From contig QIBA01000058.1 of assembly GCA_003225175.1 (NCBI GenBank), forward strand, positions 1 through 64,000: DNA of 64,000 nucleotides, written 5' to 3'. The first letter of the stretch is position 1. Every line of letters starts with the position of its first letter. This DNA comes from Acidobacteriota bacterium. GTDB lineage: Bacteria > Acidobacteriota > Terriglobia > Terriglobales > Acidobacteriaceae. The notes below the pieces were generated by a model. That model made no database searches. It was not told the DNA's origin and saw nothing but the letters and a program-made list of their open reading frames with translations. Made by a program: the position numbers and the translations under genes. Below are positions 55,150-63,288 of the stretch, piece after piece.

Positions 55150-55225
55150 GGGCGCGTAGCTCAACTGGCAGAGCAACTGACTCTTAATCAGTAGGTTGAA
55201 GGTTCGATTCCTTCCGCGCTCACCA
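55150..55225 (+). tRNA. tRNA-Lys (anticodon CTT)
   Basis: The acceptor stem gggcgcg (55150-55156) pairs with cgcgctc (55215-55221) with one G-U pair. The D arm has gctc/gagc. The anticodon stem actga/tcagt holds loop CTCTTAA, so the anticodon is CTT (Lys, AAG codon). The T arm is gaagg-TTCGATT-ccttc. The discriminator is A (55222) and CCA is encoded (55223-55225). The 3' half and downstream flank are duplicated at 63029-63075, marking this tRNA as an integration site. Confidence 0.96.
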
Positions 55226-55232
55226 AATCCTT
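55186..55232 (+). repeat. Island end att-like repeat, left (within tRNA-Lys)
   Basis: It runs from the anticodon-loop end of the tRNA (aatcagtaggtt) through the CCA into aaatcctt. It matches 63029-63075 except for g55198 versus t63041, the first base of the T stem. Confidence 0.85.
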
Positions 55233-55576
55233 CCTTTTCAGGTGCTTGCACCAGCCTCGATTCTTAAACTTTTGGTTGAACGTTCGGGCGAGTGGTCCCG
55301 TTGTGGGTCGTTGATAACAAACGCTCAGCTTCGCCGCTCTACGCAGCTAGGGAACAACCTTTTGAGCATGAAGACGCGAACATGAAGCTTCATTTGCTAA
55401 TCGGGCACGCGAAATGAAATCAATGGCGTAGCCGCCGGGTAGCAGCACAAAACTGGGGATTGGAACAAATGGAAATTTTTGTTCGTTCCATTTGTTCCAG
55501 TGAGTGTATCCGCATCCTTATTAAAGGAGCGGCTTGCCGCGATTGGACTCGAATCAGTTGATCACCTGTGGCACGA
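55226..55576. other. Left-end gap of the island with one hairpin
   Basis: No gene is seen in this 351-base stretch. A perfect inverted repeat (tggaacaaatggaa at 55461-55474 and ttccatttgttcca at 55486-55499) lies about 80 bases downstream of the minus-strand exported-protein gene. It could end that transcript, though a T-run is lacking, or be an operator. Confidence 0.45.
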
Positions 55577-56143
55577 TTAATTGCCGCGGCGTTCCTCTTC
55601 GAGCTTCTGAATGCCGGCGGCAAACCAAACGCCTCCAGCGTTGCGGATGAGAAGTACCGGAGTTTCGCAAACACTCGGGGGAGCCGGCGACAAGAAGTCG
55701 TCGATTCTGAAGTCTCCATCAGCTTCGAGGGCAACTCCGGCAAGTGTTGAGTTGTGAGCAGTGGCCGTGGCAGCGGGTCCACAGAACAATGTCGCATGAA
55801 CGCTCTGCCCGGCATTGGTTCCGATGCCGTTCCCAGCTGCCAGGAGCAAGCCGCGTCCTTCGATCTTGATATGGCCGTCAGCGTTTACGTCAGCTTCAAG
55901 CGCAGCAATTCGCCAGGGACCGCCCGGAGATACTCCCCTTACGATGTTGAGGTTGATCGCGCCATTGGCGGCGACACCTGTAACGGGAACCACGCCGATA
56001 CCACCCTTGAACTTGAGCGCGGTTTCATCTTGCGCCATTGCGATGCAGGTGGTCGTCAGGATAGTGATTGCAAGCAACAGTGCGCTGATCACATTTCGAG
56101 CCGGTCTGCTCTCGGAAAAGTTTCCACTTCTGATCTCTTTCAT
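55577..56143 (-). CDS. Exported hypothetical protein, 188 aa
   Basis: The signal peptide ends near 'TCIAMAQDE' (residue 36). The mature protein is beta-rich: 'FKGGIGVVPVTGVAANGAIN', 'GGPWRIAALEADVNADGHI', 'GRGLLLAAGNGIGTNAGQSV', 'LEADGDFRIDDFLS', 'TPVLLIRNAGGVWFAAGI', ending in a charged tail. Similar single-domain exported proteins are scattered in Acidobacteriota and Actinobacteria, but no function is known to me. AAGGAG lies 6 bases before ATG 56143, which is why this start was chosen over an upstream one. The region 155 bases upstream carries an element shared with 58938-58979. Confidence 0.75.
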   Translation of the reverse strand: MKEIRSGNFSESRPARNVISALLLAITILTTTCIAMAQDETALKFKGGIGVVPVTGVAANGAINLNIVRGVSPGGPWRIAALEADVNADGHIKIEGRGLLLAAGNGIGTNAGQSVHATLFCGPAATATAHNSTLAGVALEADGDFRIDDFLSPAPPSVCETPVLLIRNAGGVWFAAGIQKLEEERRGN

Positions 56144-56298
56144 ACTTTCTCCTTGCGTTATTGTTGAAAGCTGCTGACGCAACCGCTCCTCCGACAATCA
56201 ATAACACTCTTCACCGCACAACGCGCATTCATCGATACATCAGGAATGATTGTGTTTCGCAGCTCTTCACATGACCCACAGTATCCAGCGTCAGTTGT

Positions 56299-61855: not shown

Positions 61856-62010
61856 TGACGCGCGCCCAGCCTTCCGCGAAATACGGACCGTCTCAATAAA
61901 ACTTTGAACGCCTAGATCCGAATTGGGAATCAAATCGTCATCAATTCCGCATGGGCGAGCAGCTTCACCGTTACGCCGGAGAAAAGAAAGGAAGCCACAA
62001 GCGTGATGGT

Positions 62011-62441
62011 ATGATTCAAACCATTTGGACATATCGTGTGAGAGAGGAACGGCAGGATGAGTTTGAAAATCGTTATTGTGCCGATGGCGATTGGGCGAGG
62101 CTTTTTCCCGCGCGAAGGGCCACGGCGGGACGACGCTGCTCAGGGACCGAAGCGGCGCCCCGACATACGCAACGGTAGATTGCTGGGAATCAATGGATGC
62201 CATGGAGCGCTTCAAGCAGCAGTTCGGTAAGGAATACGCGGACCTAGACGCAGTCTGTGAGAAGCTGACGGAGAGCGAAGGGCACTTGGTATCTTTAGCG
62301 TATGCGAGTGATCTGCACAGCTTCTCGGCGGGCACACCGTTCTCGGAGTTCTCCGAGTGTGCCCCTGACTTGCAAAGAGGGATGAGCGCCCAGCGAGCTT
62401 CAGTTCTTCTCCGCATTTTCGGCTGTAGCCTCGTCCGATGA
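62011..62441 (+). pseudogene. Antibiotic-biosynthesis-monooxygenase-like gene, frameshifted
   Basis: From ATG 62011 the frame reads 'MIQTIWTYRVREERQDEFEN' and 'RYCADGDWARLF', then leaves the family pattern. The next frame carries on: 'SRAKGHGGTTLLRDRSGAPT', 'YATVDCWESMDAMERFKQQF', 'GKEYADLDAVCEKLTESEGH'. Inserting one T in the T5 run at 62102-62106 joins the halves into a typical ABM/dimeric ferredoxin-like protein. The second frame ends at TGA 62441, overlapping the GNAT start codon as ATGA, so the original pair was coupled. It may be a real pseudogene or a homopolymer error. Such small proteins often act on quinones or reactive small molecules. Confidence 0.75.
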
Positions 62442-62890
62442 AGACTCTTCTTATTCGCCTCGCGGTGCACTCCGAACGAATGGAACTTGAACACCTGCAA
62501 CTGCGTGCATCGCTTGGGAATGCGGGCGACCGCGATGCTTTACTCGCTCATCCTGATGCGATTGAATTACCGACTGAACAAATCGTTAAAGGTAGAGTGT
62601 TCGTTTCGGAATGGCAAGGCACGATAGTCGGATTTGCGGCAGTCGAACCTAGGACAGACGGCGACAGTGAACTAGACGCTCTGTTTGTTGATCCCCATAT
62701 GCAACGTCTTGGAATTGGACGAGCGTTGGTTGAGCACTGCGCCGAGTTCGCTCGCAGACAGGGCTCTGTTGCGCTACACGTTATCGGCAATCCGCATGCG
62801 GAGAGTTTTTATGCCGAATGTGGATTCAAGATGATCGGAACAGCGGAAACCCGCTTCGGGCAAGGACTGCTGATGCGGAAGGCTGTTTAA
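62438..62890 (+). CDS. GNAT-family N-acetyltransferase
   Basis: This 150-residue protein has the GNAT core: 'GRVFVSEWQGTIVGFAAVEP' (beta-2/3), 'DSELDALFVDPHMQRLGIGR' with the acetyl-CoA loop RLGIGRA, 'VALHVIGNPHAESFYAECGF' (beta-5, helix-4) and a C-terminal strand ending 'GQGLLMRKAV'. The closest resemblance is to the small YjgM/ElaA-like enzymes, but substrate cannot be predicted. ATG 62438 overlaps the preceding frame by 4 bases. The first 14 residues are weakly conserved and Met15 is a possible alternative start. Confidence 0.88.
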   Translation: MKTLLIRLAVHSERMELEHLQLRASLGNAGDRDALLAHPDAIELPTEQIVKGRVFVSEWQGTIVGFAAVEPRTDGDSELDALFVDPHMQRLGIGRALVEHCAEFARRQGSVALHVIGNPHAESFYAECGFKMIGTAETRFGQGLLMRKAV

Positions 62891-63288
62891 TGGCGACAGT
62901 CGCTGCTTTTTCGAATGCGTTTTCTGGGGAACACACTAGGGAATAACCTCGCCTAAATCTGCCTACTTATGCCCACGAAATTGCTTGGGAAACCGGTGAA
63001 ACCATTGATTTATGGGTTGCTGATCGTAAATCAGTAGGTTTAAGGTTCGATTCCTTCCGCGCTCACCAAATCCTTTGTTCTTAGCGGATGATCACGTTTG
63101 AGGGCGTTTTTGTGGTCAAACACTTGTTACCTAGTTGTTCCTAATTAGCTGCCATTTCAAAGGCCCTTCTCTTTTGGTCAATGACATGCGACCGCCGCAG
63201 AGGCTTGGCTCTTCTATTTTAGGTTGAAGGTTCACAGGTGTGGAGCTGGGAGCCAGCCCACACCTACGACGCAATTTCCGACCCGTTG
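62891..63288. other. Right-end region of the island
   Basis: No gene is seen in this 398-base stretch. It holds the right att-like repeat (63029-63075) and AT-richer sequence on each side. A 13-base match to the tRNA (aggttgaaggttc) recurs at 63221-63233, too short to mean much. Confidence 0.5.
63029..63075 (+). repeat. Island end att-like repeat, right (partial tRNA-Lys copy)
   Basis: 46 of 47 bases match 55186-55232, covering the tRNA from the end of the anticodon loop through CCA and 7 bases beyond. The 5' half of a tRNA is absent upstream, so it is not a functional gene. Confidence 0.85.

Follow-up and report, generated by a model that had tools for sequence, protein, structure and literature searches.

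An acidobacterial island at tRNA-Lys(CTT) and a family of related elements with a conserved right end

We analyzed the first 64,000 bases (the window) of contig C58 (QIBA01000058.1; 78,263 bp) of an Acidobacteriota genome assembled as 5.73 Mb in 268 contigs, and propose that its segment 55226-63028 is very probably an island that was integrated at the 3' half of a tRNA-Lys(CTT) gene via a tyrosine integrase and has since become a decayed remnant resembling a cis-mobilizable element (CIME). The evidence comprises a direct repeat of the tRNA 3' half, the conservation of the adjoining right end of the island, the match between such right ends and the local tRNA, the adjacency of integrases and tRNA genes in relatives, and the lack of any detected integrase in the island. 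The island itself is of an ordinary kind; what our analysis adds is a family of right ends, together with the tRNA-targeting integrase that goes with it.

A direct repeat of the tRNA-Lys 3' half

The sole tRNA gene recovered by ARAGORN in the window is tRNA-Lys(CTT), on the forward strand (coordinates in Table 1). A second copy of its 3' half, starting directly 3' of the anticodon and ending 7 nt beyond the CCA, is found on the far side of the island and is identical to the first at 46 of 47 positions (97.9%). The wider pairing of 55177-55241 with 63020-63084 gives 86% identity in a repeat search, and no 5' tRNA half lies upstream of the copy. When the 33-bp tRNA 3' end is searched with up to three mismatches, it occurs at two sites only in the whole host genome, namely the tRNA at 55.2 kb and the copy at 63.0 kb. 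The direct repeat is genuine, and chance does not account for it. A first-pass annotation made from the sequence alone had pointed to this tRNA and to a 47-bp repeat with one mismatch, and both are borne out. Its further suggestion, that integration into the tRNA was site-specific, finds support in the conserved end beside the 3'-half copy, in integrases abutting tRNA-Lys, tRNA-Met, tRNA-Thr, tRNA-Arg and tRNA-Pro genes, and in matches between cores (the tRNA-derived sequence that follows a right end) and tRNAs, all of which are detailed below.

A right end conserved across genera and tRNA sites

Directly before the 3'-half copy lies a right end of ~92 bp containing two direct repeats 12 bp apart. 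Without the core, blastn aligned 69-92 nt of this right end at 83% identity in G009, which belongs to another genus, 87% in G004 and 82% in G050; with the core included (62942-63076), the identity was 82% in G004 and 76% in G003. Two models were built: R1 from six training copies, the window among them, with core columns included, and R2, which is core-free, from 20 copies, again including the window. The score of the window under R1 (107.7 bits) is not independent, as the window is in the training set. Among 300 genomes from the family of the host, R1 detected right ends (E<=1e-3) in at least 33. In a draw of 397 genomes from the order, whose number of genomes outside the host's family is not stated, R2 detected them in at least 33, and in a draw of 396 from the phylum (211 genera) in at least 3; all R2 matches in these two draws fall within the host's family. 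As the model searches applied strict filters and scored ~10-11 candidates per genome, these counts are lower bounds. The right-end model offers a handle for finding islands of soil Acidobacteria that lack an integrase and have ordinary base composition. We abandoned an early idea that the right end represents the 3' terminus of an integrase gene, since intact integrases in relatives sit at the opposite end. A link to phages was also dropped: one right-end pattern had no exact match in viral_contigs, and a search for relatives of the G061 integrase yielded no confirmed viral relative.

We then compared the sequence following the right ends with tRNAs. A strict tRNA 3'-end signature follows 16 of 27 R1 sites as against 25 of 6504 control segments from the same loci, although the core columns of R1 favor sites with such a signature; the 27 sites are the window and 26 of the 42 listed rows, with 15 mostly weaker rows left out. 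For the core-free R2, the signature follows 21 of 35 sites, out of 41 listed, five without a locus and one on G003 C95 having been left out. Most cores are of the Lys type, while those of G203 and G195 are of the Met type and those of G301 and G061 of the Thr type, these Met and Thr types being assigned from the tRNA at the other end. Eight tRNA-to-right-end pairs were compared over the final 36 nt of the local tRNA, and the core agrees with it at 31-36 positions. The local tRNA is the best fit for the Met and Thr cores, with one exception in G195, whose Met core matches a Lys tRNA equally well (31 positions); in G150, other Lys tRNAs fit the core slightly better than the local one. Twenty stretches with right ends were examined; nine contain a tRNA, and seven of these form matching pairs, G065 and G239 being without one. 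The right end is therefore retained, and the core usually matches the target tRNA; we propose that the element family has switched its tRNA target and kept its right end.

Integrases abutting tRNA genes and their left ends

Relatives of the integrase (E<=1e-60) were recovered in 10 of 300 family genomes, and an integrase with at least 50% identity in 7. Each of the ten is encoded antisense, its C-terminal end abutting a tRNA (Thr 2, Lys 4, Met 1, Arg 1, Pro 2). The protein is a tyrosine recombinase with PF00589 and a SAM-like domain, preceded by an N-terminal helix-turn-helix (HTH) of the excisionase type. Each of the ten left ends carries a direct repeat pair ~45-80 bp from the tRNA, with the repeat GGTAACA in G005, G061, G195 and G079 and variants in the remaining genomes. 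Six of these pairs were found by a regular expression and four by eye; among 58 distinct tRNAs, the expression gave one further match (a tRNA-Lys of G039, from another family). Lambda-type integrases bind arm-type sites, and the paired direct repeats near both ends of the present elements are reminiscent of these. We predict from sequence alone that the paired GGTAACA-type repeats at the two ends are arm sites of the integrase.

Of the 7 genomes whose integrase reaches at least 50% identity, 6 contain a right end, vs 27 of 293 others (Fisher p 7e-6), in a test that takes two 300-genome draws as the same set, counts a weak G005 match and ignores phylogeny. Two elements are apparently complete. 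In the single-contig genome G061, a tRNA-Thr is followed by a 454-aa antisense integrase, an AAA ATPase, a resolvase and others, with the right end ~9.5 kb away; in G195, the tRNA is a tRNA-Met, and the genes between it and the right end at ~5.9 kb include a 441-aa integrase and a rolling-circle initiator (REP_ORF2-G2P). The 451-aa integrase beside the tRNA-Lys of G005 is intact; the sole, weak right-end match of that genome is on another contig. No relaxase or conjugation domain was found among the element proteins scanned. Across nine tRNA-to-right-end intervals, the integrase is apparently intact in two (G061 and G195), truncated or a remnant in three (G079, G301 and G009, where the G009 interval is measured from a tRNA-like 3' end) and not detected in four (the window, G070, G150 and G203). 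The G070 (L176 11075-13377; 2.2 kb) and G150 (L189 14644-16782; 2.0 kb) intervals each run from a tRNA-Lys to a right end and, counting genes of at least 90 aa with overlaps removed, hold one gene apiece, respectively coding for a PD40 propeller and an amidohydrolase.

In the host genome, PF00589 has 10 matches, none of them on C58. This result and the negative tblastn search described below uphold the claim of the first-pass annotation that the island lacks an integrase. Its left end does contain degenerate arm-like motifs, one of which (CTAGGGAACAACC at 55347-55359) is identical at 12 of 13 positions to the right-end motif at 62936-62948; this similarity is weak evidence, and the motifs are sited otherwise than the pairs of integrase-bearing left ends.

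The proposed history can be laid out as follows. Recombination by a tyrosine integrase would have brought 55226-63028 into the 3' half of tRNA-Lys(CTT). The left side would thereby have regained a complete tRNA (attL), and the 3' half that was pushed away would be the copy on the right side (attR). A full member of the element family would have the HTH-bearing tyrosine recombinase antisense with its C-terminus at the tRNA, a GGTAACA-type direct repeat pair ~45-80 bp inside its left end, and a ~92-bp right end whose own, similar repeats are spaced 12 bp apart, followed by the core. The window island would have lost its integrase and left repeat pair and kept its right end, and would now be immobile unless an integrase were supplied in trans. 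As no integrase remnant was detected, we infer its descent from an integrase-bearing element; likewise, we infer its insertion by the HTH-bearing integrase class and the order of loss.

The site in congeners

Five genomes of the same genus (G001, G002, G003, G004 and G005) were compared with the window. The gene ppk1 is kept beside tRNA-Lys(CTT) in G001, G004 and G005, and is on a separate contig from it in G002 and G003. In nucleotide comparisons, the similarity of the congeners to the window ends at the tRNA or up to ~56 nt beyond it, and the DNA that follows the tRNA-Lys varies: an integrase in G005, a LysR-type gene (by eye) in G001, and oxidoreductase and dehydrogenase genes (by eye) in G004. 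A DNA search with 55233-63020 against 61 genomes, including that of the host, in which the best 4 candidates per genome were scored, found no orthologous island DNA in any of the five congeners. Nine of the 61 genomes matched, the host included. These matches include the DUF3455 gene (71% in G001 and G004, at a location away from this site, 69% in a second copy in the host genome and 66% in G020), short pieces of cargo in G047 and G046, and the right end in G009, G050, G004 and G003.

Weighing the explanations

Several observations weigh against an origin by integrase-mediated insertion followed by decay. Tblastn with seven integrases or integrase fragments recovered no integrase remnant, its best match on C58 (E 0.15) lying far outside the island, and the canonical left-end repeat pair is absent from the island. 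GC content is equal inside and outside (0.550 vs 0.551 for the 30 kb to the left) and that of third codon positions (GC3) is ordinary too; the comparison of composition with the flanks, proposed in the first-pass annotation, thus gave no signal, and we dropped composition as evidence of insertion, the island not being deviant. The HTH matches of the integrases are under the Pfam and NCBIfam cut-offs (PF12728 in three full-length proteins and TIGR01764 in G005). The strict tRNA signature fails at 11 of 27 R1 and 14 of 35 R2 right ends, these being degenerate ends, true tRNA ends outside the strict pattern (G061), or ends at which non-tRNA DNA begins early (e.g. G050, G009, G216 and G114). At G065 (L191 2092-4834), a tRNA-Arg with an integrase remnant on the left is paired with a Lys-like core on the right that agrees with the Arg tRNA at 27 of 36 positions; this mismatched pair is perhaps a recombinant or nested element. 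The empty site that the same annotation had hoped for in relatives did not turn up among the congeners, because collinearity with them breaks down over the right flank (63076-71467), where matches are scattered only. Finally, only the best few candidates were scored per genome (4 in the 61-genome search and 10-11 with the models), and most genomes are drafts, in which a misjoin could arise from the 47-bp repeat.

Such a misjoin would explain the junction in the window as an artifact of a draft genome, and contigs of relatives do break at repeats of this kind (G009 C22 starts at one). However, the junction of right end and core recurs in many independent genomes, including the single-contig G061, making this explanation very unlikely. 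Even less credible is an ordinary duplication of the tRNA gene with decay of the copy, which the first-pass annotation had named as a refuting alternative. While the copy does derive from the tRNA, it consists of the 3' half only, and the ~92 bp before it are non-tRNA sequence shared with other genera and other tRNA sites; we therefore reject this explanation.

A different question is posed by the status of the island. It might be a mobilizable passenger with working attL and attR, moved in trans by related integrases as part of a non-autonomous class. Genomes with right ends (at least 33 of 300) do outnumber those with close integrases (7 of 300 with at least 50% identity, 10 at E<=1e-60), further intervals in which no integrase was detected occur in G070 (2.2 kb), G150 (2.0 kb) and G203 (11 kb), and G150 has the variant motif GTAGCA at both ends. 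Set against this, the canonical pair is absent from the left end of the window island, the host genome has no integrase relative at E<=1e-60, the truncated integrases of several neighbors point to decay, and the left and right motifs of G203 are unlike. We accordingly consider a mobilizable passenger unlikely. The broader notion, that the acidobacterial family hosts integrase-less passenger islands, some of a single gene and the window island among them, which are moved in trans by rare HTH integrases of several tRNA specificities, strikes us as rather unlikely. The mixture of intact, truncated and absent integrases is predicted by decay, but passengers mobilized in trans would give the same. 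The description of the island in the first-pass annotation as decayed or passively mobile holds; we favor decay because the canonical left repeat pair is missing as well, and a decayed, CIME-like state is the most likely one for the window island.

It is also possible, if doubtful, that the window holds only the first of at least two tandem islands, 63076 to ~71467 being another one at this tRNA, of greater age. This would fit the scattered congener matches that persist until a TolC-RND operon at 71468, from where identity is 88% with G001 and 92-95% with G004. It would also fit the presence of an SDR gene with homologs near tRNA-Lys ends in G003 and G004, although also elsewhere in G005, and an arm-like motif at ~71295. 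However, R1 gives no match at ~71295, there is no third copy of the core on the contig (up to 5 mismatches in 25), and G001 and G004 diverge from each other near the TolC-RND operon. The SDR gene (by eye; C58 67163-67891, L069 7163-7891) has its homologs near tRNA-Lys 3' ends on L082 of G003 and L071 of G004, and is possibly cargo of a neighboring island. The motif at C58 ~71295 (L069 ~11295) is GGGTAACACACTGGGAACGACTCGCC, just before synteny with G001 and G004 resumes; we rejected it as a second right end for want of a match to R1.

Relationship to known elements

As defined in PMC5704250, CIMEs, a concept credited there to Pavlovic 2004, are elements that lack integration and transfer genes and have kept attL and attR. 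The island resembles them in being flanked by putative attL and attR without integration genes and in the duplication of the 3' end of the target gene, and differs in that its left pair looks lost and no partner integrase is present at the site (PMC5704250). With regard to full membership in this class, its integration and transfer genes appear to be gone, its att sites are putative and its left pair looks lost. The same source describes integrative mobilizable elements (IMEs) with tyrosine integrases in tRNA 3' ends, for example in tRNA-Lys(CTT) of Streptococcus agalactiae. The present elements share with these the target and type of recombinase, and some IMEs have Rep proteins or lie in tandem with decayed elements; in contrast, our family belongs to another phylum, has an excisionase-type HTH on the integrase N-terminus and shows no relaxase or conjugation domain in the proteins scanned (PMC5704250). 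An own integrase together with mobilization or conjugation genes, which defines IMEs and integrative and conjugative elements (ICEs), was found in none of the island scans. As in tRNA-associated islands, an intact tRNA is accompanied by a 3'-end repeat, and the content at the site is variable.

The islands at ssrA of Dehalococcoides offer a further parallel: according to PMC3146451, 16 have an integration module at the left edge and 15 lack it. They too occupy an RNA-gene hotspot and display 3'-end direct repeats with conserved sequence by the repeat, but they use serine recombinases at ssrA, whereas the acidobacterial family uses a tyrosine integrase at several tRNA genes (PMC3146451). A survey of acidobacterial genomes includes passages on prophages and transposable elements (PMC5900883). 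None of the papers listed in our literature searches presents such an element family in Acidobacteria in its title or abstract, which does not establish its absence from print.

Cargo of the island

The features of the island are collected in Table 1. Three of its proteins, namely the small protein of no family, the DUF3455 protein and the DUF7453/NxxGxxAF-repeat protein, are likely to be secreted, going by N-termini inspected by eye. The TPR match in the 910-aa regulator is slightly under the cut-off, and the split ABM-like gene is a probable pseudogene. The two copies of a 42-bp repeat, 81% identical to each other, are sited upstream of two secreted-protein genes and of the regulator; with up to 3 mismatches, no further copy was found in the host genome and none in the five congeners. 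The repeat could serve as the operator of that regulator. A PADLOC scan of six window proteins was negative, the family scan found no transfer-type domain among the island proteins, and no phage structural family was detected among the five cargo proteins scanned.

Table 1. Coordinates and basis of the features at the tRNA-Lys(CTT) locus
Feature	Position	Strand	Basis
tRNA-Lys(CTT), left boundary (putative attL)	55150-55225	+	ARAGORN
47-bp direct repeat, left copy	55186-55232	+	repeat comparison
Degenerate left-end arm-like motifs: GATAACA at 55313, CTAGGGAACAACC at 55347-55359	55313-55359	+	weak
Small secreted-looking protein, no family	55577-56143	-	list of open reading frames, domain scans
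42-bp repeat, copy 1, upstream of gene 55577-56143	56299-56340	+	repeat search
DUF3455 protein, signal-like N-terminus (by eye)	56468-57160	-	PF11937 E 2.4e-16
DUF7453/NxxGxxAF-repeat protein, signal-like N-terminus (by eye)	57456-58658	-	PF24251 E 7.4e-16; TIGR05002 E 5.5e-27
42-bp repeat, copy 2, between DUF7453 gene and regulator	58938-58979	+	repeat search
910-aa regulator: OmpR/CadC-type winged helix, AAA_16, TPR	59123-61855	+	PF00486, PF13191, PF13424
ABM-like small gene, split over two frames	62011-62441	+	open reading frames; PF03992 E 0.011, below cut-off (weak)
GNAT acetyltransferase	62438-62890	+	PF00583 E 8.4e-17
Conserved right end, containing direct repeats 62927-62933 and 62939-62945	62927-63018	+	blastn, models R1 and R2, alignments
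Putative attR: tRNA-Lys 3' half plus 7 nt, one mismatch	63029-63075	+	repeat comparison

Further observations

Between the tRNA and the first gene of the island, an inverted repeat (TGGAACAAATGGAA..TTCCATTTGTTCCA) is present at window positions 55465-55505. Its first 35 bp (55465-55499) are 91% identical to positions 8105-8139 of L072 in G005, 2.7 kb from the tRNA-Lys of that genome. In the same family, fragments of a second type of tyrosine integrase were noticed near tRNA-Lys cores (L075 10884-11258, L077 11819-12190 and L189 16822-17108). In G001 and G004, tRNA-Lys 3' halves (L078 4233, L079 1311, L080 9030 and L081 8846) occur with no tRNA-Lys gene in the stretch examined; they are preceded by a shared motif of the TTTCAAAATGGG type, and such sites are perhaps the ends of a second element family.

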